Source of the DNA: Candidatus Polarisedimenticolaceae bacterium
Lineage (GTDB): Bacteria > Acidobacteriota > Polarisedimenticolia > Polarisedimenticolales > DASRJG01
DNA: 64,000 nt
Reading direction: 5' to 3'
Assembly: GCA_036376135.1 (NCBI GenBank)
Contig: DASVAW010000164.1
Location: 1 to 64,000 of the forward strand
Shown here piece after piece: positions 4,384 to 18,509 of this stretch. The position numbers and the translations under genes were made by a program. Numbering within the stretch: position 1 is the first letter of the stretch; each line of letters opens with the position of its first letter. The notes under the pieces are model-generated. The model saw nothing but the letters and a program-made list of their open reading frames with translations, ran no database searches and was not told where the DNA came from.

Positions 4384-5577
4384 TCACTTCTTCGACTTCT
4401 TCGCGTCCTGCGCCTGCTTCACCGTCTCCCCCGTCCGGACCGCGAAATACCCGCGTTTCGCGCGCACCTCGACGTCGGGGACGGTCGAACGGACCTCGAT
4501 CTTGACCCAGCGGCCGTCGTACTCCTTCAGCGAGGACTGATAGCTGATGTAGTACTGCGCGCGGAGCTCGTCGGCGATCGCCTTGTAGGCGGCGGCGAGC
4601 TCTTTGGCCTTGTCCGCGAAGAAGGCGCGGCCGCCCGTCGCGTCGCAGAACTCCTTGAGCGCCCCCTTGCGGACCGACGGGCCCAGGCCGATCGCGTAGA
4701 TGAGGACGTCCTGGGTCTTGGCTTCCTCGAGGACGCGGTGGAAGGGGAACTGGCTGCTCGTGTCGTCGCCGTCGGTGAGCAGCACGATCGCCTTGCGCCC
4801 GTCGATGCCGCGCAGCTTCCGGAACGCGGCGTGCAGCGCGTCGTAGATCGCGGTGTCGCCGATCGCCTCGGTGCTCGAGGCCGCGTCCTTCAGCGCGGCC
4901 TTGTCGGAGGTGAGATCCTGGATCAGGAAGACCTTGTCGTCGAAATCGATGACGAGGGCCCGGTCGTCGTCCTTGAGCTGGTCGATGAAGCCGAGCGCCC
5001 CCTCGTGGACGTCGTCGAGCGCGTCCCGGATGGAGCCGGAGCTGTCGAGCAGCAGGGCCAGCGTGATCGGGCGGTCCTCCGGGTAGAAGTCGAGGATCGT
5101 CTGCTCCTCGCCGTCCTCGAGCACCCGGAACTGCTCCCGCTTCAGCCCCGCGATCGGCTGCTTCCCCTTCGTCTCGGCCGTCGCCCAGAGCAGGACGCGG
5201 TTCACCTCCTCGATCTGGAGCCCGACGACCTTCCGGGTGACGATCGTGTCGGAGACGGAGAGCCCTTCCCTGTGCCACGCCGTCGCGCGGATCACGTACG
5301 AGCGGGTCTCGGGGCCGAAGTCGAAGACGAACTCGAACGGCGCGGCGCGGTCCACGAAGACGACCTTGTCGCCGACCGCGAACTCGACGCGGTCGAGGTC
5401 GTCGGGGGACTCGATCTTCACCTCGGCGGCGATCTTGGCCTTCCCGAGGACGAATTCGTCGTTCCGGGGCTCGGTGATCGCGATCGAGAAACCGCGACGC
5501 GTGGGTTTCGGCTGGGCGAGCGCGGGGAGCGAGCCGACGAGGGCGGCGACCGCGAGCAGCGCGATCGCGCGCCTCAT
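4384..5577 (-). CDS. Secreted VWFA-related protein
   Basis: The 397-residue product begins MRRAIALLAVAALVGSLPALAQ, a clear signal peptide. After an N-terminal beta domain (about 30-115) comes a von Willebrand type A fold with the metal site D178-S-S180-G-S182 and a later LLTDGDD. This layout matches the VWFA-related family abundant in Acidobacteria (TIGR03436), whose members are exported and thought to act in binding or assembly. Its start overlaps the stop of the TPR gene by 4 bases (ATGA), so translation is probably coupled. A longer in-frame stretch upstream is the antisense-like shadow of the TPR gene and was not used. Confidence 0.88.
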   Translation of the reverse strand: MRRAIALLAVAALVGSLPALAQPKPTRRGFSIAITEPRNDEFVLGKAKIAAEVKIESPDDLDRVEFAVGDKVVFVDRAAPFEFVFDFGPETRSYVIRATAWHREGLSVSDTIVTRKVVGLQIEEVNRVLLWATAETKGKQPIAGLKREQFRVLEDGEEQTILDFYPEDRPITLALLLDSSGSIRDALDDVHEGALGFIDQLKDDDRALVIDFDDKVFLIQDLTSDKAALKDAASSTEAIGDTAIYDALHAAFRKLRGIDGRKAIVLLTDGDDTSSQFPFHRVLEEAKTQDVLIYAIGLGPSVRKGALKEFCDATGGRAFFADKAKELAAAYKAIADELRAQYYISYQSSLKEYDGRWVKIEVRSTVPDVEVRAKRGYFAVRTGETVKQAQDAKKSKK

Positions 5578-7097
5578 GGGCGGCCCTCCTCGGCGGGCTG
5601 GGGGCGCACGACGAAGGGCGGCGGCGGCGGGGCCTGCGGGGCGCGCGAGGGGGCGATCCGGGCGAGCACGCGGCGCACGCGCTCGGCCGTTTCCCCCGAA
5701 GCCCCCGATTCGATGTAGCGGACGTAGGCGTCGACCGCTTCCTCGCGTCGGCCGGAGCGGTAGAGGGCGTTGCCGAGGTAGGCCCACGCCCGGTCCGGCG
5801 CCCCCGGCAGCACGATCGCCCGGCGGAAGGCCTCGATCGCCGCGGCGTCGTTGCCGAGCAACGCGAGTGCGACGCCGTCGTTGACCTCGGCCACGGGGTC
5901 CTGGGACGACCGCGCGAGCACCGCGTAGAGCTCGTGAGCCTCCTGGTAACGTCCGGCGCGGAGGCGGTACCAGGCGAGGCGCTCCGTGTCGGGGCCTTGC
6001 GTGCCCGCGCGGGACTCGAGTTCGGCCGCCTCGGCGAAACGCCCGCGCGACGCCTCGAGGGTCGCCGCTTCGCGGAAGTCGACGGCGGTGGCGGTTCCCG
6101 CCTCGAGCCTCGCGGTGATCGCGGCGACCCGGTCGCGCTCGGCGACGGTCGCGGCCCGCGTCTCTTCCACGCGGACTCTCGTGCTGGTGTCGGTCCGTTC
6201 GTCGGCGAGGATCGCGTCGAGCTCGGCGAGCGCTCCGGCGTAGTCCCCCTCGCGGCGGCGCAGCTCCGCGTTCCCCTCCCGTGCGGGGGGATGGGCGGGG
6301 TCGCGCGCGAGTGCCTCGCCGAACGCCTTCGCGGCGTCCCCCGCAAGGCCGAGGTCGAGGAGGATCCTGCCGAGGACCGCGCGGGGGTCGGGATTCCAGG
6401 GCTGCAGCTCGATGGCTCGCCTCACGGTGGCGACCGCTTCGTTCTGCAAGCCGAGCCGGGCGTAGGCCAACGCGAGCCGGTTCAGGCCGGGGACGTAGTC
6501 GGGGCGGACGGTCACCCCTTCGGCAAGCAGCTTGACCGCTTCCTCGAGACGGCCCCGGCGCAGGTAGAGGTCGCCCAGGCTCACGTAGGCCTCGGGATAC
6601 CCGCGGTTGGAGGCGATCGCCTTTTCGTAGAAATCGACGGCGGCGGCCTCGTCCGCGCGGGCCTCGGCGAGCCGGCCGAGCCCTTCGTAGGCGGCGGGGA
6701 AGTCGGGGCGGAGCTTGAGGGCACGGTGGTAGGCGGCCTCGGCTTCGCCGAGATCGCCGATCTGGAGGTAGGCATCGCCGAACGCCACGTGCGCCTGGAG
6801 CTGGCTGGGGTCGAGCTCTAAGGCGACGCGCAGGGCGTCGACCGCCGCGGTGGGGCGCCGGTCGCCGAGGAGCGCCAGGCCGAGGAAGTACCACGCGCGG
6901 TAGGAGTTGAGGGCCGTGTTCGTCACCCCGCGGAGGATCTCGACCGCCTTCCCGTATTCGCCGCGGTTCACGAGCGCGGCGCCTTCGCTCAGGCGGCGGA
7001 ACGATTCCGCGCGGACCTCCACGGCCTTGCCCGCCCGGACGTGCGGGGACAGGAACACGAGGAGGACGGCAAGGGGGAGGATCCGTCGCACGGGCAC
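5574..7097 (-). CDS. Secreted tetratricopeptide (TPR) repeat protein
   Basis: The 507-residue product starts at GTG behind GAGGTG and has a signal peptide (MPVRRILPLAVLLVFLSPHVRA). The rest is almost entirely helical TPR units with the usual spacing of W, L, G, Y, A, F and P; for example, residues about 40-240 contain at least six repeats such as AWYFLGLALLGDRRPTAAVD and AYHRALKLRPDFPAAYEGLG. TPR arrays bind other proteins. Coupling to the VWA gene suggests the two products work together outside the cytoplasmic membrane, perhaps as a scaffold like the BatA/BatB-TPR sets. That link is inferred. Confidence 0.88.
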   Translation of the reverse strand: MPVRRILPLAVLLVFLSPHVRAGKAVEVRAESFRRLSEGAALVNRGEYGKAVEILRGVTNTALNSYRAWYFLGLALLGDRRPTAAVDALRVALELDPSQLQAHVAFGDAYLQIGDLGEAEAAYHRALKLRPDFPAAYEGLGRLAEARADEAAAVDFYEKAIASNRGYPEAYVSLGDLYLRRGRLEEAVKLLAEGVTVRPDYVPGLNRLALAYARLGLQNEAVATVRRAIELQPWNPDPRAVLGRILLDLGLAGDAAKAFGEALARDPAHPPAREGNAELRRREGDYAGALAELDAILADERTDTSTRVRVEETRAATVAERDRVAAITARLEAGTATAVDFREAATLEASRGRFAEAAELESRAGTQGPDTERLAWYRLRAGRYQEAHELYAVLARSSQDPVAEVNDGVALALLGNDAAAIEAFRRAIVLPGAPDRAWAYLGNALYRSGRREEAVDAYVRYIESGASGETAERVRRVLARIAPSRAPQAPPPPPFVVRPQPAEEGRP

Positions 7098-7171
7098 CTC
7101 GTTCAGGAGACGGTGGGGAGTCTAACCCCGGTCAAATCCGGCCGCATCCGAGCGTGTTACCTTCCGACCGC

Positions 7172-7876
7172 ATGGACGCGACTTCGATCGGCCTCCTCGG
7201 TGTCGCGGGAGTCGCCGTCGTGCACACCGCGGCGGGCCCCGACCACTGGCTTCCGTTCATCATGCTGGCCCGCGCGCGTGGCTGGAGCCGCGCCCGGACG
7301 TTCGCCGTCACCGCGGCCTGCGGGATCGGGCACGTCGCATCGTCGCTGCTCCTGGGGGTGGGAGGCCTCGCCCTCGGGTACGAGATCGCGCACCTGGCCG
7401 GCATCGAGGAGATCCGGGGGGACCTCGCGGCGTGGGCGCTGCTGGCCTTCGGCTTGGCCTACACCGTCTGGGGGGTGCGCCGCGGGTTGCGGCGCCGGCA
7501 CGCGATCGAGGTGCACGCCCACGGGGATCACGTGCACGTGCACCGCCACGCGATCCACCTCCACGCGCACCGGCACGACCACGGATGGAAGCAGCAGCAG
7601 ACGACCTTCTGGTCGCTCTTCCTGGTCTTCGTCCTCGGCCCCTGCGAGCCGTTGATCCCGCTGTTCATGGTGCCCCTGGGGGAGGGGCGACTGGCGGCCG
7701 CGTGGACGATGGCGGCGTTGTTCTCCGTGGTCACGATCGCGACGATGCTCGTGCTCGTGGGCGTCGCGCTGGCCGGCATGCAGCGGCTGCCGGTTCGCGG
7801 ACTCGAGCGCTGGTCGCACGCCCTCGCCGGAGCGGTCGTCGCGTCCTGCGGCGTCGCGATGTTGTTCGGACTTTAG
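7172..7876 (+). CDS. NicO/UreH-like membrane transporter with His-rich loop
   Basis: The 234-residue protein has about six membrane helices. The first carries HTAAGPDHWLPF, matching the H-x(4)-D-H signature of nickel/cobalt transporters of the NicO/RcnA and UreH groups. A second conserved region, GPCEPLIPLF, lies in helix 4. Between them is a loop very rich in histidine (about residues 110-140, HAHGDHVHVHRHAIHLHAHR), a likely metal-binding stretch. The probable job is transport, or delivery to the outside, of Ni, Co or another divalent metal. The ATG at 7172 is preferred; a GTG 18 bases upstream is in frame and neither has a strong ribosome site. Confidence 0.8.
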   Translation: MDATSIGLLGVAGVAVVHTAAGPDHWLPFIMLARARGWSRARTFAVTAACGIGHVASSLLLGVGGLALGYEIAHLAGIEEIRGDLAAWALLAFGLAYTVWGVRRGLRRRHAIEVHAHGDHVHVHRHAIHLHAHRHDHGWKQQQTTFWSLFLVFVLGPCEPLIPLFMVPLGEGRLAAAWTMAALFSVVTIATMLVLVGVALAGMQRLPVRGLERWSHALAGAVVASCGVAMLFGL

Positions 7877-7881
7877 AACTA

Positions 7882-7900
7882 AAAGGGGCCTGACCCCTTT
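7882..7900. repeat. Small hairpin between convergent genes, terminator-like
   Basis: AAAGGGG and CCCCTTT form a 7-bp stem around the loop CCTGA. It fills the gap between the converging stops at 7876 and 7899-7901, and the minus-strand stop codon overlaps its right arm. It may end transcription in both directions; it also resembles short dispersed GGGGTCAGGCCCC-type repeats found in many genomes. Confidence 0.5.
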
Positions 7901-8615
7901 ATACCGCCCGGCCGTCGCGGATCTCGAGGACACGGCTGGCGCGTCGGGCGAGCGCGGGGTCGTGCGTGATGACGATCACCGTTCGCCCCTGCTTCCACAG
8001 GTCCTCGAAGATCCCCATGATGTCCCCTCCCGACGAGGTGTCGAGGTTCCCCGTGGGCTCGTCGGCGAGGAGGATCGAGGGGTTCATCGCGAGGGCGCGT
8101 GCGATCGCCACGCGCTGCATCTGACCTCCGGACAGTTCGGTGGGGCGGTGCTCCATGCGCTGACCGAGGCCGACCCGCTCGAGCAGCTCCTTCACGCGCG
8201 TGCGCCGCTCGCCCTTCGGAACCCCACCGAACAGCAGCGGCAGCTCGACGTTCTCGTAGGCGGTGATCTGCGGCAGCAGGTTGAACGCCTGGAAGACGAA
8301 GCCGACGTGCTGGTTGCGGACGGCGGCGAGCTCGTCCTTGGTCAGACCGCCCACCTCGCGGCCGCGCAGGTTGTAGCTGCCGCCCGACGGGGTGTCCAGG
8401 CAGCCGATCAGGTTCATGAGGGTGGATTTCCCGGACCCCGAGGGGCCGACGATCGCCACGAACTCCCCGGCGCCCACGTCGAGATCGACCCCGCGCAGCG
8501 CCTCCACCCGGATCGCCCCGGTGTCGTAGACCTTCGTGATGCCGCGCATGCGGATCACGTCGCCGGCATTCGTGGCCGTCGCGGCGGTGGCGGTCGAGGT
8601 CGTCGTCTGGTCCAT
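7899..8615 (-). CDS. ABC transporter ATPase, MacB/LolD type
   Basis: The 238-residue protein has a Walker A (GPSGSGKS), signature LSGGQMQRVAIARAL, Walker B (ILLADEPTGNLD) and switch histidine (VIVITHDP). The ADEPTGNLDT wording is typical of the MacB/LolD/FtsE group that works with FtsX-like permeases. The ATG is preceded by GAGGTG. It is the last gene of a four-gene operon (adaptor, permease, permease, ATPase) and lies 8 bases after the permease stop. It may also energise the lone permease at 16044, which lacks its own ATPase. Confidence 0.92.
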   Translation of the reverse strand: MDQTTTSTATAATATNAGDVIRMRGITKVYDTGAIRVEALRGVDLDVGAGEFVAIVGPSGSGKSTLMNLIGCLDTPSGGSYNLRGREVGGLTKDELAAVRNQHVGFVFQAFNLLPQITAYENVELPLLFGGVPKGERRTRVKELLERVGLGQRMEHRPTELSGGQMQRVAIARALAMNPSILLADEPTGNLDTSSGGDIMGIFEDLWKQGRTVIVITHDPALARRASRVLEIRDGRAV

Positions 8616-8623
8616 GGGGCACC

Positions 8624-9877
8624 TCACTCGTAACGAAGGGTCTGGGCCGGGTCGACCGACGCGGCGCGTCGCGCCGGGAAATACGCCGCGAGCAGTCCCA
8701 CCGCGCCGAGGATCCCGGCCGAGGCGAGGCCCACCGAGAGGGAGAGCGTGGGCTTGCCGAGGAATTGCAGGGCCTCGTTGCCGTCCGTCGGGATCATCCC
8801 GAGGATCGCGACGAGGAACGTGGCGCCGACGAGACCGAGCAGCCCCCCGGTCAGCGTGTAGGCGAGCCCCTCGAGCAGGAGCGGAGCGGTGATCCATGCC
8901 GGCCGGGCGCCCAGCGCCATCTTCACGCCGATCTCGCGCGTACGCTCCTTCACGGTCGCGTACATGATGTTCGCAACCCCGACGCCGCCGATCGTGAGCG
9001 TGAGCCCGCCGATGATCCCGAGGAAGATCTGGATGCCGAGAAGGACGTTGCGCGTGATCCTGCCGCTCTCGACGGTATCCCAGCACCCCAACGCCGGCTC
9101 GTCGGCCGGGTCGAACCCGTACCGGGGGCTGAGCAGCTCCCGCACGCGCGTGATCGCCGCCTTCATCTGGTCGGGGTCCCGCGGGCGGATCACGACGTTC
9201 GCGAGGCGATCGCGCCCGAACTGCGCGCGGAAGGTCTGGATGGGGATCACGGCGTTCGACGCATCGGGGCCGCCGTACGTCCCCATCTGCATCTTCTTCT
9301 GCATCACGCCGATCACCGTGTAGGGGACGTTGTTGACCAGGACCACGTTCCCGACCGGCTCCTCCTTGGCGAAGAGCTGCTCGGCGAGCTCGTTTCCGAG
9401 GAAGATCACGCGGCGGCGATGCTCGTCGTCGAGGTCGTTGATGAAGCGTCCCCCCTGGCGGGCGATGTGATTGCGCAGGTCGCCATACTCGCGCGTGGTC
9501 CCGGTGACGCGCGCGTTGATCGTCGTGCGCCCCCACGTCAGGCTCGTCTGCCAGCTGCGCATTTCGCCTACGATCCCGTCGAGCTCGGGCATGCGCTCGC
9601 GCAGCATCGCGACGTCGTCGATCCGCGGCCGGATGGGCCGCCCCGGAGGAAGCCCCTGCCACCCCTTCGTCGTCTCGCCGGGCCAGAAGACCCCGATTCC
9701 CGACCCCATCCCCGCCATGTTGGTCGACATCTGTTTCCGCAGTCCCTCGCCGAAGGCGAGCAGCAGCAGGAGGGCCACGGTGCCCCACGCGATCGCGGCG
9801 ATCGTGAGGTAGGCGCGCTTGCGCTGGATGCGCGACGAGGTCCAGAACAGCTGGAGGACGACCGAGGAGGAGCTCAT
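8624..9877 (-). CDS. MacB-like ABC transporter permease
   Basis: The 417-residue product has an N-terminal membrane helix (ayLTIAAIAWGTVALLLLLAFG region, residues 20-42), a large periplasmic MacB-type domain (about 50-270), and three C-terminal helices containing the FtsX signature GVGVANIMYATVKERTREIG and the end motif PARRAASVDPAQTLRYE. This is the usual MacB/FtsX permease plan without a fused ATPase. The start at 9877 was chosen because it begins just before the hydrophobic helix region; an upstream extension to 9943 is rich in Arg and unlike family members. It probably pairs with the permease at 9886 as a heterodimer. Confidence 0.9.
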   Translation of the reverse strand: MSSSSVVLQLFWTSSRIQRKRAYLTIAAIAWGTVALLLLLAFGEGLRKQMSTNMAGMGSGIGVFWPGETTKGWQGLPPGRPIRPRIDDVAMLRERMPELDGIVGEMRSWQTSLTWGRTTINARVTGTTREYGDLRNHIARQGGRFINDLDDEHRRRVIFLGNELAEQLFAKEEPVGNVVLVNNVPYTVIGVMQKKMQMGTYGGPDASNAVIPIQTFRAQFGRDRLANVVIRPRDPDQMKAAITRVRELLSPRYGFDPADEPALGCWDTVESGRITRNVLLGIQIFLGIIGGLTLTIGGVGVANIMYATVKERTREIGVKMALGARPAWITAPLLLEGLAYTLTGGLLGLVGATFLVAILGMIPTDGNEALQFLGKPTLSLSVGLASAGILGAVGLLAAYFPARRAASVDPAQTLRYE

Positions 9878-9885
9878 GCGCGCCC

Positions 9886-11115
9886 CTACAGCTTCATCGC
9901 GACGACGGGGTCGAGGCTCGCGGCGTCCCGCGCCGGGAACCACCCCGCCAACACGCCGATCAGCCCGAGCAGTCCCGCGGTGACGCCGGCGACGAAGGGG
10001 GAGATCGTCGGGGTCCCCACGTACTCGGACAGGCCCAGCGACGGGAAGATCGCGCAGATCGACCAGGAGAGGCCGAGCCCGATCGCGCCGCCGACCGCGG
10101 TGAGCAGGAGGGTCTCGACGATGAACTGGGAGAGGATCCAGCGCGAGCGCGCGCCCAGCGCCATCTTGATGCCGATCTCGCGCGTCCGCTCCTCGACGAC
10201 GACGTTCATGATGTTCGACACGCCGATCCCGCCGACGACGAGGGTCAGCGAGCCGACGATCCCGAGGAACGCCTGGAACGCGAGCATGAAGGTGTCGAGG
10301 AACTTCGTCCCCTCGGTCGTGTCCCAGATTCCGATCGCCTCCTTGTCCTTGGGGTCGAAGCGGTGCTTGCCCGCGACGATCTCGAGGACCTGGGTCTTCG
10401 CGGCCTCGGTCTTCGCGACGTCCTTCGCGCGGAAGATGAAGTTGTCCACGTACTCGGCGCCGGTCAGGGCGCGGAAGGTGCTTCCGGGGATCCAGGCCTT
10501 GTCCTGGTCGCGCCCGCTGTACGACGAGTCCTGCTCCTTCTCGATCATCACGCCGACGACGGTGAACGGCGATCCCTGGACGAGCACGGTTTTTCCGACC
10601 GGGTCGGTCTCCCCGAAGATGTTGGTCGCGAGCTTGTCCCCGAGGAAGACGACGCGGCGTTGCTGCTGCTCGTCGAGGTCGTTGATCCAGCGGCCCCCGG
10701 AGCGGGGGATGACGTTGCGCATCTCGCCGTAGACGGGGACGACGCCGGAGACGTCGGCGGGAACCGTCTTGGACCCGAAGGTCATCTTCAGGGTGTTCAT
10801 GTATTCGCCGCTGATTCCGCCGACGAGATCGGCCCGGGCGGCGACGAGCTGCATGTCCTCCTCGGCGAGACGGATGCGCCGGCCGCGGCCGAGGCCCTCG
10901 AACGGGATCGAGGTGCGCGAGGGCCAGGCGATGCAGATCGCGTCGCCCAGCCCGTTCTGCGCCTTGATCAGCTGCTTGTGCAGCCCCTGCCCGAAGGCCA
11001 GGAGCAGGCTCACCGCCACGGTGCCCCAGACGATCCCGAAGGTCGTCAGGAACGTGCGCAGCTTCTGGCTGCGCAGGTCCCGCGCGAGCTGCTTCAGGCC
11101 GACCCCGATGCCCAC
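9886..11115 (-). CDS. MacB-like ABC transporter permease
   Basis: The 409-residue protein has the same plan as its neighbour: helix 1 (residues about 20-42, FLTTFGIVWGTVAVSLLLAFG), periplasmic MacB domain, and three C-terminal helices with GIGVSNIMNVVVEERTREIG and WFPARDAASLDPVVAMKL. It starts at GTG 4 bases after the adaptor's stop and is followed after 8 bases by the second permease. Two different permease genes side by side suggest a heterodimeric tripartite efflux pump; the substrate is not known. Confidence 0.9.
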   Translation of the reverse strand: MGIGVGLKQLARDLRSQKLRTFLTTFGIVWGTVAVSLLLAFGQGLHKQLIKAQNGLGDAICIAWPSRTSIPFEGLGRGRRIRLAEEDMQLVAARADLVGGISGEYMNTLKMTFGSKTVPADVSGVVPVYGEMRNVIPRSGGRWINDLDEQQQRRVVFLGDKLATNIFGETDPVGKTVLVQGSPFTVVGVMIEKEQDSSYSGRDQDKAWIPGSTFRALTGAEYVDNFIFRAKDVAKTEAAKTQVLEIVAGKHRFDPKDKEAIGIWDTTEGTKFLDTFMLAFQAFLGIVGSLTLVVGGIGVSNIMNVVVEERTREIGIKMALGARSRWILSQFIVETLLLTAVGGAIGLGLSWSICAIFPSLGLSEYVGTPTISPFVAGVTAGLLGLIGVLAGWFPARDAASLDPVVAMKL

Positions 11116-11119
11116 GGCG

Positions 11120-12226
11120 CTACCCCTTGATCTCTCGCGGGGGCCGCTCGATGACGCGATCGCCCGCCTTCAGCCCCTCGACCACCTCGACGTTGAGGCC
11201 GTCGGAGAGGCCGGTCTTGATCTCGACCTTGCGCGGCTCGTCCTTGGGGCCCGCCCCCGGGAGCTCGACGAACGCCTTCTTGCCCGCGTCCTCGAAGGTC
11301 ACGAGGCGCTCGGCGACGAGGACGATGTCCTTCTTCTCCCGGATCACGACGTCGGCGTTGGCGGAGTACCCGGCGCGCAGCACGGCGTGCTGGCCCGGGT
11401 CGAGCTCGATCTCGACCTCGAAGAGCTTGGAGTTGTCGCGCTCGATCGCCTGCGGGGCGATCCGCGTCACGATCCCGGTGACGGCGGCGTCGGGGAGGGC
11501 GCCGATCTTGAGACGGGCGGGGAGGCCGACCTGGAGCTTGCCGACGTCGATCTCGTCCACGGTCCCCTTGAAGATGAGGTCGCCCATCGGCGCGATCGTC
11601 GCGAGCTCGGTCCCCGCCTGGTACGAGGTCAGCGGCACGACCGGATCGCCGGGGTTCACCGCCCGCGACAACACGGTCCCGCCCGCGGGCGCGCGGACGA
11701 CCGACTCCATCTGGTTCGAACCGCTGGTGATCCGCCCCTTCTTGACGAGGTCGAGGTTGTCCTGCGCCTGCGCCACCGAGATCCGGGTCCGCTCGAAGGA
11801 CTCGCGCCTCGCATCGAGGTCGCCGCGGGGGACGATCCCCGACGCTCCCAGCTCGTTGGCGCGGCGGAAATCCGCCTCGGCCCGCTCGAAGGCGGCCTGC
11901 GCGAGCTCGAGGGTCCGCTGCGCCTCGACGACTTCCTGGGGGGTGGGGTCGGGGACGATCTCGAAGAGGATCTGTCCCGCTTGGACGGTGTCGCCGACGT
12001 CCACGGCGGCCTTGCGGACGATGCCGGAGATCTTGGACTTCACCTGGAACTTGAGCCGGGGCTCGATCTTGCCGACCGCCACCGCCTTCTCGGTGATGGA
12101 GCCGGTCACGACCTCCACGGTCTTGATCCCGGGACCCGCGTCGCGCCCCGAAAGCCAGGCGTAAGCTCCCAGCGCGGCCGCCGCGACGACGGCGAGGATG
12201 AGGACTCCTCGGATGACCTTCTTCAT
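11120..12226 (-). CDS. Periplasmic adaptor (MacA/HlyD family) of ABC efflux pump
   Basis: The 368-residue protein has an N-terminal anchor (MKKVIRGVLILAVVAAAALGAYAW), a lipoyl/barrel-sandwich half at about 45-75 (VAVGKIEPRLKFQVKSKISG), a helical hairpin at about 95-170, the second lipoyl half (VRAPAGGTVLSRAVNPGDPV), then beta-barrel and membrane-proximal domains. This is the MacA-type order. The ATG follows GGGAGG. It is the first gene of the minus-strand operon with two permeases and an ATPase and should link them to an outer-membrane channel encoded elsewhere. Confidence 0.9.
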   Translation of the reverse strand: MKKVIRGVLILAVVAAAALGAYAWLSGRDAGPGIKTVEVVTGSITEKAVAVGKIEPRLKFQVKSKISGIVRKAAVDVGDTVQAGQILFEIVPDPTPQEVVEAQRTLELAQAAFERAEADFRRANELGASGIVPRGDLDARRESFERTRISVAQAQDNLDLVKKGRITSGSNQMESVVRAPAGGTVLSRAVNPGDPVVPLTSYQAGTELATIAPMGDLIFKGTVDEIDVGKLQVGLPARLKIGALPDAAVTGIVTRIAPQAIERDNSKLFEVEIELDPGQHAVLRAGYSANADVVIREKKDIVLVAERLVTFEDAGKKAFVELPGAGPKDEPRKVEIKTGLSDGLNVEVVEGLKAGDRVIERPPREIKG

Positions 12227-12351
12227 GGGTGCCTCCCGGAACGGCGGGCGCCGCCCTCCGCCTGGGTAGTACGCGCGGGCCTTTCGAGATGTTCCCGCGG
12301 AGCGGGCGAACGGTTGAAAGGTGCGGGTGGGCGGCGCCGGCGGAACGGGGT

Positions 12352-12380
12352 TTGACGCCGCCCCCCGGCTCCGCGAGAAT
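12352..12380 (+). promoter_or_regulatory. Promoter for the triple-adaptor operon
   Basis: TTGACG at 12352-12357 and GAGAAT at 12375-12380 are 17 bases apart, a good sigma-70-like pair. The expected start of transcription near 12387 is only about 6 bases before the ATG at 12393, where no ribosome site is visible. The mRNA may be nearly leaderless. Confidence 0.5.
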
Positions 12381-12392
12381 CGGCCGAAGCCG

Positions 12393-13589
12393 ATGGCACG
12401 AGCAACCTTCCGTTCTCCGATCCTCGCGAGCGCCCTTGCCCTCCTCGCGCCGGCGTGTTCGGGGTCCCGCGCCGATCGGACCTCCGATCCGGTCGGCGAT
12501 CTCGAGGTCCATCGCGGCCCCTTCGTCGAGACGGTCCTGCTGACCGGCGCCTTGGAGGCCGAGCGCTCCGCCGACCTGGGGGTTCCGAGGATCCCCGGCG
12601 GGACGTCGATCCGCTGGCTCGAGGCGGACGGCGCGCGCGTGAAGGCGGGGCAGAAGGTCGTCGAGTTCGACGGGGCGTCGTTCGGTCGCGACCTGGAGGA
12701 GAAGAAGGTCCAGCGCCGCCAGGCGGAAAGCGACCTCGAGCAGCGCATCGCCGAGGTTGCCGCCCGCAACGCCGACAAGGCGTTCGCGGTCGAGCAGCGG
12801 CGGCTCGCGCTCGAAAAGGCGAAATCCGAGGCGGAGGTTCCGGCCGAGCTCCTCGCCGCGCGGCAGTGGCAGGAGCGTCAGCTCGCCCTCGAGCGCGCGA
12901 AGGTCGAATACGCCAAGGCCCTCGAGGACGAGAAAGCCTCGGCCCAGGCCGGGGAGGAGGACATCGAGCAGCGCCGGATCAACCTCCAGAAGGCCGCGCG
13001 CGAGATCGCCGTCGCCGAGACGGCGCTGTCCGAGATGACCCTCGTGGCGCCCACCGACGGGATCCTCGTTCATGCCGACCACATGTGGGAGGGGCGGAAG
13101 CTGCAGGTCGGCGACACCGTCTGGATGGGCGTCACCGTCGTCCGCATCCCCGACCTCGCCGCGATGCGCGTCCAGGCGCAGCTGAGCGACGTCGACGATG
13201 GGCGGATCGCCCCCGGCATGCGCGTGCGCTGCGTCCTCGACACCTACCCGGAGCTGGAGTTCCCCGGGAAGATCGTCGAGGTCCAGGCCGTCGCCCGCGA
13301 GGCCGAGCGATTCTCGCCGCGCCGGATGTTCCCGACCGTCGTCACGCTCGACAGGACCGATCCCGAGAGGATGCGGCCCGGGATGTCCGTCCGCGTCGAG
13401 GTCGAGGCGGCGAGGCGGGAAGGGGCCCTCCTGGCGCCGCGCGCGGGCCTCGACCTGGCGGCGGACCCGGTCGTCGCCCGCCTGCGCGGCGGGGAGCGCA
13501 GGCCCGTGAAGCTCGGCCCGTGCAACGCGAGCGTGTGCATCGTCGAGGAGGGGCTGGAGGAGGGGCGCGTGCTCGAGGCGACGCCGTGA
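12393..13589 (+). CDS. HlyD-type adaptor lipoprotein (first of three)
   Basis: The 398-residue product begins with a signal sequence ending at cysteine 22 (ALLAPAC), so it is probably a lipoprotein. It has a split lipoyl domain (GALEAERSADLGVPRI near 50-65 and MTLVAPTDGILVHADHMW near 215), a long charged helical hairpin between them (about 105-205), and a beta-barrel domain after. It is an adaptor of the MacA/HlyD/RND type. The start was chosen at M25 of a longer frame because the signal sequence starts there. Its stop overlaps the next start (GTGA). Diverges from the four-gene efflux operon on the other strand. Confidence 0.82.
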   Translation: MARATFRSPILASALALLAPACSGSRADRTSDPVGDLEVHRGPFVETVLLTGALEAERSADLGVPRIPGGTSIRWLEADGARVKAGQKVVEFDGASFGRDLEEKKVQRRQAESDLEQRIAEVAARNADKAFAVEQRRLALEKAKSEAEVPAELLAARQWQERQLALERAKVEYAKALEDEKASAQAGEEDIEQRRINLQKAAREIAVAETALSEMTLVAPTDGILVHADHMWEGRKLQVGDTVWMGVTVVRIPDLAAMRVQAQLSDVDDGRIAPGMRVRCVLDTYPELEFPGKIVEVQAVAREAERFSPRRMFPTVVTLDRTDPERMRPGMSVRVEVEAARREGALLAPRAGLDLAADPVVARLRGGERRPVKLGPCNASVCIVEEGLEEGRVLEATP

Positions 13590-14809
13590 AGCGCCGGACG
13601 TGGTTTCTCGGGGGGGCGGTCGCCGTCGCGGCGATCGCCTGGGCGGCCTGGCCGGCCCGCGGGGGCGCCGACGGGGACTGGACCGAGGTGAAACGCGGCG
13701 ACCTCGTCGTCGAGGTCGAAGTGAGCGGGGAGCTCCGCGCCAAGGAGACCGCCGCGCTCGGGCCTCCGCCGATCGAGGATCTCTGGGAGTTCAAGATCTC
13801 GATGCTCGCCCCCGAGGGCTCGCAGGCGAAGGCGGGCCAGCCCGTCATGGCGTTCGACGCCACCGAGCTCGACCGCAAGCTCCAGCAGAAGATCGCCGAG
13901 GCCGACGAGGCGAAGGGGAAGATCGACAAGCGCCGCGCCGACGCGGAGCTCGCCCGCGCGCGCGACGCGCTCCAGCTCGCCGAGGCGGAGGCGAAGGCCC
14001 GGAAGGCGCGCCTGCAGGTCGAGGTGCCGCCGGGGCTGCAGGCCGACCGCGCGTTGTTCACCGCGAAGCTCGAGCTCGAGGAGAGCGAGCGCGAGATCGC
14101 CTACGTCAAGGCCCGGACGCAGGCGGCGCGGCACGCGGAGGAGGTCGCCCTCTCGGCGCTCGAGGGGCAGCGCGGCGCCGCGGAGCGGCGCGTGCGCGAG
14201 ATCCGCGAGGCGATCGCATCGATGACCGTGAAGGCGCCGCGCGAAGGGACCGTCGTCTACGTCTCGAACTGGCGCGACGAGAAGAAGAAGGTCGGCGATT
14301 CGGTCTACAAGACCGAGCGCGTCCTCGAGATCCCCGACCTCGCCTCCCTCGCCGCGAGCGGGAACATCGACGAGGCGGACGCCGGACGGATCCGCCCCGG
14401 GCAGAAGCTCGCGCTGAGGCTCGACGCGCACCCCGACGTGACCTTCGGGGGCCGGATCGTCTCGATCGGCGACACGGTGCAGCGGAAGTCGTGGCGCGAT
14501 CCGCTCAAGGTCGTGAAGCTCGAGATCGAGCTCGACGGCACCGACACGCGACGCATGCGGCCCGGGATGCGGTTCCGGGGGACCGTCGAGGCCGAGCGGG
14601 TCGCGGGCGAGGTCCTCGTTCCGCTCGAGGCGGTGTTCCGCGCCGACGCGGGGCCCGTGGTCTACCGCCGGTCGCTCGGGGGGTACGAGGCCGTCCGGGT
14701 GGACCTCGGCCGGCGGAACGCCACCCACGCCGTGGTGGTGAAAGGGCTCGCCGCGGGGGACCGCGTGGCGCGCCGCGACCTCGCCGCGGCGGACAGGGAG
14801 GGGGCGTGA
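13586..14809 (+). CDS. HlyD-type adaptor (second of three)
   Basis: The 407-residue protein has a membrane anchor near residues 5-23 (WFLGGAVAVAAIAWAAW), then a lipoyl half (VEVEVSGELRAKETAALG), a long Ala/Glu/Lys/Arg-rich hairpin (about 90-205), the second lipoyl half (MTVKAPREGTVVYVSNW) and a beta-barrel. It is a paralogue of the adaptors on either side; all share a W.....KVGD or RVGD stretch after the second lipoyl half. Translation begins at GTG overlapping the previous stop by 4 bases and ends with the same kind of overlap. Confidence 0.85.
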   Translation: MKRRTWFLGGAVAVAAIAWAAWPARGGADGDWTEVKRGDLVVEVEVSGELRAKETAALGPPPIEDLWEFKISMLAPEGSQAKAGQPVMAFDATELDRKLQQKIAEADEAKGKIDKRRADAELARARDALQLAEAEAKARKARLQVEVPPGLQADRALFTAKLELEESEREIAYVKARTQAARHAEEVALSALEGQRGAAERRVREIREAIASMTVKAPREGTVVYVSNWRDEKKKVGDSVYKTERVLEIPDLASLAASGNIDEADAGRIRPGQKLALRLDAHPDVTFGGRIVSIGDTVQRKSWRDPLKVVKLEIELDGTDTRRMRPGMRFRGTVEAERVAGEVLVPLEAVFRADAGPVVYRRSLGGYEAVRVDLGRRNATHAVVVKGLAAGDRVARRDLAAADREGA

Positions 14810-16047
14810 TCCGCGCGTTTCCGCTCGTCACGCTCGGAATCCTCCTCTCCGCCTGCTCGCGCGGCCCCGACGTCCCCACCGTCGAGGTCCAGGAGACGAC
14901 CTTCGAGCGCCGCGTCACGGCCGAGGGGCAGGTCGAGGCGAAGGACGCGACGCCGATCACCGGCCCGATGGACACGGAAGGGGCGATGAAGGTCGCCTGG
15001 ATGGTCCCCGAGGGCTCGCGCGTCGCCGAGGGAGACGTCGTGCTCCGGTTCGATCCGGTGGACATGGAGAAGCTGCTCGCCGACGGCCGCGCCGAACGCG
15101 CGGTCGCGGACAGCAAGCGCACGGGGATGGAGGTCGAGAGCGACGGCGTGCTGCGCAACCTCGACCGCGACGCGGCCCTGGCGCGGGAGGAGCTTTCCGC
15201 ATCGGCGAAGTTCCAGGCGAAGGATCCGGACATCTTCTCCCGCCGCGAGATCATCCAGGCGGAGATCGACCGCGACCTCGCGTCGCGCCGGCTGGCGCAC
15301 GCCGAGGGCTCGCGCGCGGTGCGAAGCCGGATCGCGACGGCCGACCTCGCGCTCGTGGACATCGACCGGCGCAAGGCCGACCTTCGGATCGGCCAGGCGG
15401 AGAAGGGGCTGCGGGCCCTCGAGGTGAAGGCGCCGCACGCGGGGATCGTCGTCTACCAGCGCGACTGGCAGGGGAACACGACCCGCGTGGGGGACACGAT
15501 CTGGCCCGGGGAGGAGGTCGCGGAGATCCCGCGGCTGGACACGATGATCGCCAAGGTGTTCGTGCTCGAGGCGGACGCCGGCGGCCTCGCGGTCGGGCTT
15601 CCGGCGGAGGTCGTTCTCGAGGCGTACCCCGAGGCGCCCGTCCCCGCGAAGATCACCAAGGTGGCGACCCTGGCCAAGCGCCGGATGGGCTGGGTGCCGG
15701 TGCAGTACTTCGAGGTCGAGGTCGCCTTCGATCGGCAGGATCCCGATCGCATGAAGCCCGGCCAGCGCGTTCGCGCGGCTCTGGCCCTCGAGCGCCGGGA
15801 CAAGGCGGTCGTGGTCCCGCGCGGCAGCGTCTTCGAGCGCGAGGGGAAGAAGGTCGTCTACCGCCGGAACGGCCGCGGCTTCGAGCCCGTCGAGGTCGCG
15901 CTCGGCCCGGCCGCCGTCGGGAACGTCGTCATCGAGAAGGGGCTCGCCGCGGGCGAGCGGATCGCGCTGCGCGACCCCGAGGCGGAGGAGCGCTCCGACG
16001 GCGAGAAGCCCGCGTCGGGACCCTCCTCGCCGAGGTCGGCGTCGTGA
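14806..16047 (+). CDS. HlyD-type adaptor lipoprotein (third of three)
   Basis: The 413-residue product carries a clean lipobox (ILLSAC, cysteine 17). It has the same order of parts: lipoyl half at about 38-60, hairpin about 90-205, second lipoyl half (LEVKAPHAGIVVYQRDW), then beta-barrel and membrane-proximal domains. The C-terminal 20 residues are charged and low in complexity (EERSDGEKPASGP). GTG start and stop both overlap neighbours by 4 bases, so all four genes of this operon are tightly coupled. Confidence 0.85.
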   Translation: MIRAFPLVTLGILLSACSRGPDVPTVEVQETTFERRVTAEGQVEAKDATPITGPMDTEGAMKVAWMVPEGSRVAEGDVVLRFDPVDMEKLLADGRAERAVADSKRTGMEVESDGVLRNLDRDAALAREELSASAKFQAKDPDIFSRREIIQAEIDRDLASRRLAHAEGSRAVRSRIATADLALVDIDRRKADLRIGQAEKGLRALEVKAPHAGIVVYQRDWQGNTTRVGDTIWPGEEVAEIPRLDTMIAKVFVLEADAGGLAVGLPAEVVLEAYPEAPVPAKITKVATLAKRRMGWVPVQYFEVEVAFDRQDPDRMKPGQRVRAALALERRDKAVVVPRGSVFEREGKKVVYRRNGRGFEPVEVALGPAAVGNVVIEKGLAAGERIALRDPEAEERSDGEKPASGPSSPRSAS

Positions 16048-17276
16048 CGCCGCAGGAGTCGCTCCAGGCGGCGCTCGAGAACCTCGCCGCGCACAAGCTC
16101 CGCTCCGCGCTCACCATGCTCGGGATGATCTTCGGCGTGGGCGCCGTGATCGCGATGCTCTCCATCGGGGCGGGGGCGGAGCGGCAGTCGATGGAGATGA
16201 TCGAGCGCATGGGACTGCGCAACGTGCTCGTCCGCGCCAAGGACAAGAAGGAGGAGGAGCTCCGCGAGATCCGGAAGAAGTCGCTCGGCGTCTCCTGGCG
16301 CGACGCGCAGGGGATCGAGGACGGCGTGCCGGGGGTGGAGAACGCCCTCCCCAAGCTGCTGATCGAGCCGTACAAGGTGCTCGCCCCCGACGCGAAGACC
16401 GAGGCGAAGGTCTGGGGCGTCTCCTCGCGCCACCCCGAGCTCTCGGGCCTCGAGCTCGCCGAAGGGCGGTTCTTCGACGTCCGCGACGAGGCCGAGCACG
16501 CGCAGGTCTGCGTGATCGGACCGAAGGTGCGGCGCGAGCTGTTCGGCTACGACGCGGCGCTGGGGAGACTCGTCAAGGTCAACGACGTGTGGCTCGAGGT
16601 CGTCGGGGTGCTGCGGGCATCGGGGGGCGGATCCTCGTTCGAGGGGGTGCAGGTCGGTTCGACCGCGGAGGAGATCTACCTCCCGGTGACGACGGCCCAG
16701 CGGAAGTTCGACCGTCCGCCGCTGAAGTCGCCGCTCGACGAGATCGTGGTGCGGCTCGACGCCGGCGCCTCGCCGCGGGATGCCGCGACCGCGATCCGCG
16801 GGCTGCTGGAACGGCTGCACGGAGGGGTGGACGACTGGGAGCTCGTCGTTCCGGAGGCCCTGCTCGAGCAGAGCCGGAGGACCCAGCGCCTGTTCAACAT
16901 CGTGATGGGGTGCATCGCCGGGATCTCCCTTCTCGTCGGCGGGATAGGGATCATGAACATCATGCTCGCCACGGTCCTCGAGCGGACCCGCGAGATCGGC
17001 GTGCGCCGCGCGGTCGGCGCCAAGCGCAAGGACATCCGCACGCAGTTCATCGTGGAGTCGTTCTCGATCAGCGCGCTCGGCGGCCTCGCCGGCGTGGCGC
17101 TCGGCGTCGGCATCGCGCAGGTGGTCGCGATGTGGGCGGGATGGCCGACCGTCGTGACCGCGGGCTCGATCGTGCTCTCGACCGGCGTGTCGGTGGCGGT
17201 CGGCCTCGTGTCGGGGATCTACCCGGCGGTGCGCGCCGCCGCGCTCGATCCGATCGAGTCGCTGCGTTACGAGTAG
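16044..17276 (+). CDS. MacB-like ABC permease without a linked ATPase
   Basis: The 410-residue protein has helix 1 at about 20-42 (SALTMLGMIFGVGAVIAMLSIG), a MacB-type periplasmic domain, and three C-terminal helices with GIGIMNIMLATVLERTREIG and the end motif YPAVRAAALDPIESLRYE. It is closer to standard MacB than the two permeases on the other strand. It closes the three-adaptor operon. No ATPase gene follows; the nearest is the one at 7899-8615, which may be shared. Confidence 0.9.
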   Translation: MTPQESLQAALENLAAHKLRSALTMLGMIFGVGAVIAMLSIGAGAERQSMEMIERMGLRNVLVRAKDKKEEELREIRKKSLGVSWRDAQGIEDGVPGVENALPKLLIEPYKVLAPDAKTEAKVWGVSSRHPELSGLELAEGRFFDVRDEAEHAQVCVIGPKVRRELFGYDAALGRLVKVNDVWLEVVGVLRASGGGSSFEGVQVGSTAEEIYLPVTTAQRKFDRPPLKSPLDEIVVRLDAGASPRDAATAIRGLLERLHGGVDDWELVVPEALLEQSRRTQRLFNIVMGCIAGISLLVGGIGIMNIMLATVLERTREIGVRRAVGAKRKDIRTQFIVESFSISALGGLAGVALGVGIAQVVAMWAGWPTVVTAGSIVLSTGVSVAVGLVSGIYPAVRAAALDPIESLRYE

Positions 17277-17294: not shown

Positions 17295-18509
17295 CTACTT
17301 CGCCTCGTAGGTCGCCCGGACCACCTGGAAGGCGTAGGCCTTGCCGTCGCGCGTCGCGACGCGTCCGCGCCACACGGCGGGGGGCTCGAACCGGAACGAG
17401 AGGACCTTGTGGCGGCTGCGCAGCAGGCGCAGCGCGTGTCCCCCGTCGCTCCAGTTCCCGTCGTGCCCCAGGCGGACGACCAGCTCCTGAAGCCCTTCCA
17501 TCGGGAGCTCGGGGCCGGTCAGGTGGCGGCAGTGTTTCCACCACAACATCTCGTCGAGGTTGTCGAACTCGTAGACCGGCGGCTTCTCGAAGGCCGCCTC
17601 GAGGCGCTGCGGCCGTCCCGGGATCTCGACGAGCTCGAGCGGGCGAACCGTCGCGAAGGGCGCCAGGCGGTCGCGGAGCGAGGCCTTCGGGAACAGGTCC
17701 CTCGTCGCGCCTTTCGCCGCGTCGCGCAGGGCCAGGCGCCGGACGAACCCGTCGGCGGGGAGGATCGCGTAGCCGCTCTCGCGGTCGCCGAGGAAGACGC
17801 AATCCTCGGGGGCCTCGAGATAACGGGCCGCCGCGAACGCGGCGAGGGTCGCGTCGAGCAGCGCCCCCGCGCGCTCCACGTCGCGCTCGGACCCGGCGAC
17901 AGCCAGCGCGTCCCACGCGGGGCGCAGGTCGAGGTCCTCCTGGAAACCCAGGCCGCGCAGCGCCAGGTCGAGCGCCGACGCCCGCTCCGGCCATTCGGCC
18001 CGGGACGAGGCGCGGTAGGGAGGAAGGGCGTACCCGCGGAAGGCGGCGTCGCGATCGGGGTGGATCCCGGCGGCGGCCGCCGCGGATCCCTGCCAGACGA
18101 GGATCTTCGCGACGAGATCGGGCCACGTCTCCGCGAGCCCCGATTGCCTCCGGTCCCGATCGGGCCACGGAAGGCACGGATGTCCAGCCGAGGCGAACGC
18201 TCCCAGGAGCGCCGGCCCCTGCCATGCTTCGCCGTCCTCCCGGCGGGGGGGACGCCGACCCAGCCGGCGCTTCGCGGCGTTGTCGACCGGCCGCCCCTTG
18301 GATCCGCGCGGCGCGAGGATCGGCACGTCGACCGCGAGGGTGAACGCTTCCCCCCCCGCGAGCTCCGCAACGTCCCGGACCAGGGCCGGCGGGTCGTCCG
18401 GGCGTCGGACCTGATCGACGCGCCCTTGGCCGTCGAGTCTGACCAGGGTCCCCTCGGCGCCCGCCGCGGCGCCGGCGAGGGGCCCAAGATCCGCCCCCAG
18501 GATTCGCAT
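17295..18509 (-). CDS. DUF429-like protein (predicted RNase H-fold)
   Basis: The 404-residue protein begins MRILGADLGP, and has VDVPIL and RPVDNAAKRRLGRRPP stretches, as seen in DUF429 proteins, which are predicted to have an RNase H-like nuclease fold with acidic residues D7 and one in AVDVP. The C-terminal 150 residues (about 250-404) match nothing I recognise. No neighbour gives a clear role. On the minus strand TATATT lies just before the start, so its message may have a very short leader. Confidence 0.6.
   Translation of the reverse strand: MRILGADLGPLAGAAAGAEGTLVRLDGQGRVDQVRRPDDPPALVRDVAELAGGEAFTLAVDVPILAPRGSKGRPVDNAAKRRLGRRPPRREDGEAWQGPALLGAFASAGHPCLPWPDRDRRQSGLAETWPDLVAKILVWQGSAAAAAGIHPDRDAAFRGYALPPYRASSRAEWPERASALDLALRGLGFQEDLDLRPAWDALAVAGSERDVERAGALLDATLAAFAAARYLEAPEDCVFLGDRESGYAILPADGFVRRLALRDAAKGATRDLFPKASLRDRLAPFATVRPLELVEIPGRPQRLEAAFEKPPVYEFDNLDEMLWWKHCRHLTGPELPMEGLQELVVRLGHDGNWSDGGHALRLLRSRHKVLSFRFEPPAVWRGRVATRDGKAYAFQVVRATYEAK

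Follow-up and report, generated by a model that had tools for sequence, protein, structure and literature searches.

We have analyzed a stretch of 64,000 nucleotides (the window) from a Candidatus Polarisedimenticolaceae bacterium (Acidobacteriota; GCA_036376135.1, contig DASVAW010000164.1, positions 1 to 64,000; genome G000 in our numbering, 179 contigs, 97.6% complete), and specifically an operon that codes for three adaptors and one permease. Four genes follow each other on the plus strand. The adaptors (membrane fusion proteins) are A1 (12393..13589, 398 amino acids, a probable lipoprotein), A2 (13586..14809, 407 amino acids) and A3 (14806..16047, 413 amino acids), and the fourth gene, PM (16044..17276, 410 amino acids), codes for a MacB-type permease without a nucleotide-binding domain (NBD). 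A1 starts with ATG at 12393. The other three start with GTG (13586, 14806 and 16044), each inside the GTGA that ends the preceding gene, and because of these 4-bp overlaps the four genes look translationally coupled.

All the Pfam matches were above the cut-off: HlyD_D23 and HlyD_3 in the three adaptors, with RND_mfp in addition for A3, and in PM the MacB/FtsX (type VII) domains MacB_PCD (PF12704, 129.8 bits) and FtsX (PF02687, 72.5 bits). Neither an ATPase gene, judging from the reading frames of the window and Pfam, nor a TolC-type outer membrane gene was found within the operon. Three HlyD-type adaptors with one MacB-like permease and no ATPase is also what a preliminary description of this DNA had claimed, and coordinates and domains bear it out. 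It had taken two of the adaptors for lipoproteins as well. By pattern scan, without a signal-peptide predictor, the lipobox of A3 is clear (LLSAC) and that of A1 weaker (LAPAC), so the claim holds for A3, and for A1 it gains plausibility from the simple lipobox pattern in 16 of 49 orthologues. A2 has an N-terminal hydrophobic anchor that looks uncleaved.

Conservation of the adaptor trio

The three-adaptor set is a fixed unit in many Acidobacteriota and not a local oddity. A search of 120 relatives with PM gave, in addition to the window, 49 places in 43 other genomes at an identity of at least 44%, after which there was a drop to 40% and below. The permease family was present in 92 of the 396 Acidobacteriota genomes drawn, and in 68 of 210 genera (E up to 1e-85). 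We compared the neighbourhoods of 50 loci (set 1, the window and L043-L091) and of 54 further loci kept as a hold-out (set 2, L216-L269); L092, with 40% identity, a single split adaptor and its own ATPase, was left out before counting. The order A1-A2-A3-PM was found in 46 of the 50 and 47 of the 54, i.e., in 93 of 104 loci of one permease family, which is more than a chance association. Nine of the 11 loci without the full order have less than 300 bases of contig upstream, and the other two (L086 and L244) are real exceptions.

Outside of the phylum, Pseudoalteromonas sp. NC201 (NZ_CP022523.1) has the ATPase gene (N) followed by the whole set, N-A1-A2-A3-PM, with genes that overlap or abut. 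A second Pseudoalteromonas record also matched, and this was the single genus with a full-type relative when a plasmid collection was searched with A2. A weak adaptor match was seen in Brevibacillus (L012).

Some variants of the set deserve mention. In L077, L083, L090, L091 and L123, which include several ATPase-bearing sets and Pseudoalteromonas, a shortened A1 of about 290–320 residues is found, without the membrane-proximal part of the profile. The operon is rarely interrupted, as in L074, where a gene of about 789 amino acids without Pfam match (9795-12161) lies between the fused A1-A2 and A3. In L258 (G154) and L263 (G366) the operon contains, after PM, another permease of MacB type that has diverged from it, so the pump may also exist in a heterodimeric form. 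An OEP gene was found directly after PM in L088, L262 and L011.

The adaptors were also compared in phylogenetic trees. With 150 adaptors from 51 loci plus the adaptor of the neighbouring divergent operon (described below), the labels of operon position required 5 changes, versus 72.2 when shuffled, and all the stray labels came from four loci (L010, L011, L088, L089). In a tree of 291 adaptors the main-group A1, A2 and A3 each occupied one side of a branch, with the exception of 17 loci that we call gamma. These had their own A1, A2 and A3, each again on one side of a branch (support 100), and all of them behind one branch (99). Outside of gamma, the adaptors form one orthologous group per operon position. 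An earlier test with four gamma loci, on A1 and A2 only, let a single clade per position stand (approximately unbiased test, AU, p 0.21 for A1 and 0.17 for A2). With more gamma loci, this constraint gave AU p = 0.003 (A3), 0.016 (A2) and 0.048 (A1) over 66 rows, and 0.004 (A3), 0.017 (A2) and 0.073 (A1) over 60 rows under a mixture model. A single triplication is thereby rejected for A3 and A2 and is marginal for A1. Judging from these trees, either the trio would have arisen twice or tandem copies would have been homogenised by gene conversion in one lineage; either route leaves exactly three adaptors.

In 13 of the 104 loci A1 and A2 form one open frame (L070, L071, L073, L074, L076, L079, L218, L226, L246, L250, L265, L267, L268), so in that chain they are fixed at 1:1. 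The join is 10–21 residues long and has no stretch resembling a membrane anchor (17-residue hydropathy ≤1.0). Fusion required two changes on the permease tree, one in the group close to the window (L218 and L226, of one family) and one in the other group, pointing to at least two origins. A one-frame reading of L262 running from A1 to A3 was rejected as a fusion, since the 465-residue gap holds A2 in another frame.

The hairpins have also been compared, measuring in one alignment the residues between the lipoyl half-motifs. A length of 125 was found in 41 of 47 A1, 43 of 50 A2 and 48 of 51 A3, versus 80–122 (mode 94) in 30 MacA-like single-adaptor controls from the same and related genomes and 87 in the divergent adaptor of the window. 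Among 46 hold-out loci with all three hairpins measured, the lengths were equal in 45, at 125 in 33 and at 124 in 12, the latter being gamma. As the gamma adaptors group together, their 124 may be inherited and not the product of concerted change. AlphaFold2 models of A1 and A2, built from 12-sequence alignments, had mean predicted local distance difference test values of 86.3 and 86.5. The hairpin helices were placed at 95-147 and 156-213 in A1 and at 93-145 and 154-211 in A2, with identical lengths (53 + 58 residues). For both models the best Foldseek match was MacA in MacAB-TolC (9qgy, 5nik). The adaptor type with lipoyl, hairpin, beta-barrel and membrane-proximal domains is thus indicated by Pfam for A1-A3, and by model and Foldseek match for A1 and A2. 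A serine at the hairpin tip, presumably of functional importance as parts of the adaptor literature describe it, is kept in 44 of 51 A3, 20 of 49 A1 and 25 of 50 A2. Since it is kept more often in A3, this adaptor may make the main contact with the outer membrane channel.

ATPases beside and away from the set

A complete adaptor-permease-permease-ATPase operon diverges from the A1 side, as had been described. All its genes are on the minus strand: the adaptor (12226-11120), a first permease (11115-9886), a second one (about 9877-8624) and the ATPase (8615-7899). The region shared by the two operons is indeed of 166 bp (12227..12392), and it is the putative start region of the three-adaptor operon. 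The two permeases are of MacB type, different from each other (45% identity along most of the sequence), and are accompanied by one adaptor and one ATPase, for which reason they probably form a heterodimeric permease. Beside this operon lies a membrane protein-like frame with a histidine-rich stretch (7154-7876, no Pfam match), perhaps a metal transporter. On the other side, directly after PM, there is a convergent gene of 404 amino acids on the minus strand (17295-18509), also without Pfam match.

It had been suggested that the three-adaptor set may share the ATPase at 7899-8615 with this divergent operon, with the constant co-occurrence of the two operons as a check. We consider such sharing very unlikely. 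Adjacency was seen solely in G000 and in a member of the same family, G001 (L046). The divergent permease family was found in 23 of 120 relatives, 11 of them also with a three-adaptor permease, and is absent from 33 of the 44 genomes that carry the latter. The operons therefore occur independently. Besides, the ATPase at 7899-8615 groups with ATPases tied to its own permease pair in a tight clade (support 100/100), and we have rejected it as the partner. The broader notion of an ATPase supplied in trans still stands, with another ATPase as the candidate.

Of the 104 loci, 13 have a MacB-type ATPase gene next to the set. In seven it stands directly before A1 (L077, L080, L083, L085, L087, L090, L091) and in six directly after PM (L074, L223, L224, L225, L229, L250). 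The preliminary description had held that an ATPase directly after the permease in relatives would indicate simple loss in the window and refute its reading, and such loci exist. In 63 full sets that have 1 kb or more of sequence on each side, no MacB-type ATPase lies next to the set (with about 7 kb of downstream view in most of set 1 and 1.5 kb in most of set 2). As sets without an ATPase are the usual case, simple decay of the operon in the window genome is rejected. On the permease tree ATPase adjacency takes 4 parsimony changes, reappearing in several branches. Because of the 13 loci in cis and the complete Pseudoalteromonas operon, gene neighbourhoods lead us to count an ATPase as part of the system, although rarely in cis.

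In keeping with this, PM is similar to MacB over its whole length (5gko, E 4.5e-51) and retains the cytoplasmic loop ERTREIGVRRAVGA, which aligns with that of MacB and which we take to be the loop contacting the NBD in this family. Conservation of this loop did not depend on an ATPase in cis, with values of 0.86 and 0.82 in ATPase-less PMs and 0.86 in those with one.

The genome G005, in one contig, has 11 permeases with MacB_PCD, of which nine adjoin an ATPase; the two without a MacB-type ATPase are the three-adaptor ones. Among its ten best MacB/LolD/FtsE-like ATPases, the one at 4138432 is the only one without an adjacent permease. The genes there are OppD/F-TolC-Yip1-ATPase-ExbB-ExbD-TonB, where the names OppD/F, ExbD and TonB were read from sequence and are not family calls. 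TolC-ATPase-ExbB without permease was also found in G007 and G003, and these three genomes, order-mates of the window genome, have ATPase-less sets. In the other genomes compared of their family (f3), no such orphan locus was found: neither in G006 and G008, where the sets have their own ATPase, nor in G009, which has no set (G008 and G009 are 87% and 81% complete). The neighbourhood is conserved in L165, L166 and L210, with the Yip1-domain protein in G005, and energy coupling across two systems may meet there. The orthologues of this ATPase in G001, G002, G004 and G000 (clade support 95/93) are each accompanied by an adaptor and a permease of their own, and the order in G000 is TolC-adaptor-ATPase-permease-ExbB. 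The weakest step of our proposal is to take this gene (G000:C1:10937-11590) as the candidate for a shared ATPase acting in trans, and the neighbouring OEP protein as the candidate channel.

A probable mixed adaptor tube and the alternatives

Taking these data together, we regard as fairly probable that the set is a MacAB-TolC-like ATP-binding cassette (ABC) exporter, whose tube would be a hetero-oligomer of the three adaptors, all of them obligatory, most likely (A1A2A3)2, and whose ATPase would be supplied in trans. PM would dimerise like MacB, and a separately encoded MacB/LolD-type ATPase would bind it through the conserved cytoplasmic loop, closing and opening it. The tube would consist of two copies of each adaptor, a two-fold hexamer matching the two-fold permease dimer. 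A2 would be held in the membrane by its N-terminal helix, and A3, probably also A1, by lipid. The adaptor tips would meet a TolC-type trimer, and the exit duct could be the TolC-type channel beside the ATPase of contig C1. More tentatively, at a level of confidence that falls somewhat short of even, a general rule might apply, in which dividing six by the symmetry of the transporter gives the number of distinct adaptors: (A1A2A3)2 for the two-fold permease, as (AB)3 for three-fold resistance-nodulation-division (RND) pumps such as TriABC. The three-adaptor state would then have arisen at least twice, in the main groups and in the 17 gamma loci, so that exactly three would be the selected number, and the ATPase would be interchangeable, taken from the MacB-type pool of the cell.

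The mixed hexamer had already been suggested by the preliminary description, and the conserved trio of distinct paralogues, their equal hairpins and the recurrent A1-A2 fusion argue indirectly for it. A rival reading is that of three alternative homo-hexamers sharing one permease, each with a different outer membrane partner or substrate. In its favour, the fold or the family match of an adaptor is complete in each of the three, promiscuous adaptors occur in known pumps and the hairpin-tip serine differs between operon positions. However, 93 of 104 loci contain all three adaptors, whose genes look translationally coupled in the window, hairpin lengths agree within 45 of the 46 hold-out loci, and the fusion forces A1 and A2 into one complex in 13 loci, which makes this arrangement unlikely in our opinion. 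Even less probable is that the set no longer uses ATP and persists as a scaffold or sensor made of an orphan permease and adaptors. The 63 sets without adjacent ATPase would fit, and orphan permeases are a known habit of the phylum, as the name of the ADOP family tells; these duplicated, ATPase-less permeases are said to be common in Acidobacteria. Against it, the loop that presumably contacts the ATPase is kept in ATPase-less PMs, ATPases reappear beside the set in several branches, and an orphan ATPase with TolC is found in the same genomes.

Several observations weigh against the mixed tube with an ATPase in trans. Equal hairpins and fusions indicate compatibility, not stoichiometry, and the mixed assembly goes one step beyond them. 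L063 and L066 have hairpins of three different lengths (A1 128/129, A2 126/127, A3 125), and those of L088, where A3 stands apart, and of L264 of the hold-out are also unequal. A1 and A2 often lack the serine at the hairpin tip. L086, whose stretch contains 400 N, and L244 break the rule of the trio. As for the ATPase, the in-cis genes scatter on the tree (with a weak backbone) and are not one clade, so there is no single dedicated partner, and one ATPase lineage travelling with the set is unsupported. The second three-adaptor permease of G005 (L068) is followed directly, on the same strand, by an ABC-2-like ATPase and permease (5419-7082), so that it does have an ATPase neighbour, though of another type. 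The orphan state of the ATPase comes from three genomes of one family, and the candidate of G000 has its own adaptor and permease (L124), which means that sharing must be assumed.

An adaptor hexamer touches both a three-fold channel and a pump of two- or three-fold symmetry, and the roles of six identical chains are hard to tell apart. If the mixed tube is correct, three distinct and separately mutable adaptors, some of them already fused in tandem, would let each position of the ring be tested alone, and the set would show that an ATPase can be shared in trans among pumps of the MacB family. It also provides a recognisable annotation unit for genes that are now named singly as 'RND adaptor' and 'MacB'.

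Relation to known export systems

Each component family is known. The literature searched (full text; subscription papers are outside the coverage of these searches) yielded no MacB-type pump that combines three distinct and conserved adaptors. MacAB-TolC consists of a MacB dimer, a MacA hexamer and a TolC trimer (PMC5985334). PM is MacB-like throughout and the models of A1 and A2 match MacA best. However, in place of the single homo-hexameric adaptor of E. coli there are three adaptor genes in one operon, and their hairpins are about 30 residues longer than in the MacA-like controls. The cognate NBD is not fused to the permease and usually not in cis, being absent from the window operon and adjacent in 13 of 104 loci.

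TriABC-OpmH of P. aeruginosa has more than one obligatory and non-equivalent adaptor per pump (PMC13328181, PMC8277102), a feature that the three-adaptor set would share. There, two adaptors serve an RND transporter; here three accompany an ABC permease, and PM, being of MacB type, is not the inner membrane transporter of a TriABC-type pump. In LitOPAI (Legionella), YknWXYZ and Spr0693-0695 a MacB-type permease has a separately encoded ATPase like in our set; unlike it, these systems have one adaptor each and the ATPase within the operon (PMC11559062, PMC5985334).

The ADOP proteins (TIGR03434) share with PM that they are MacB-like permeases of Acidobacteria. However, they are duplicated permeases of about 800 residues, whereas PM is a single unit of 410 residues with adaptors; it reached 139.5 bits against a cut-off of 622.3, matching just the C-terminal half of the model. 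The three-adaptor set is best filed with the MacAB-TolC-type pumps, and not as a member of the TriABC or ADOP groups.

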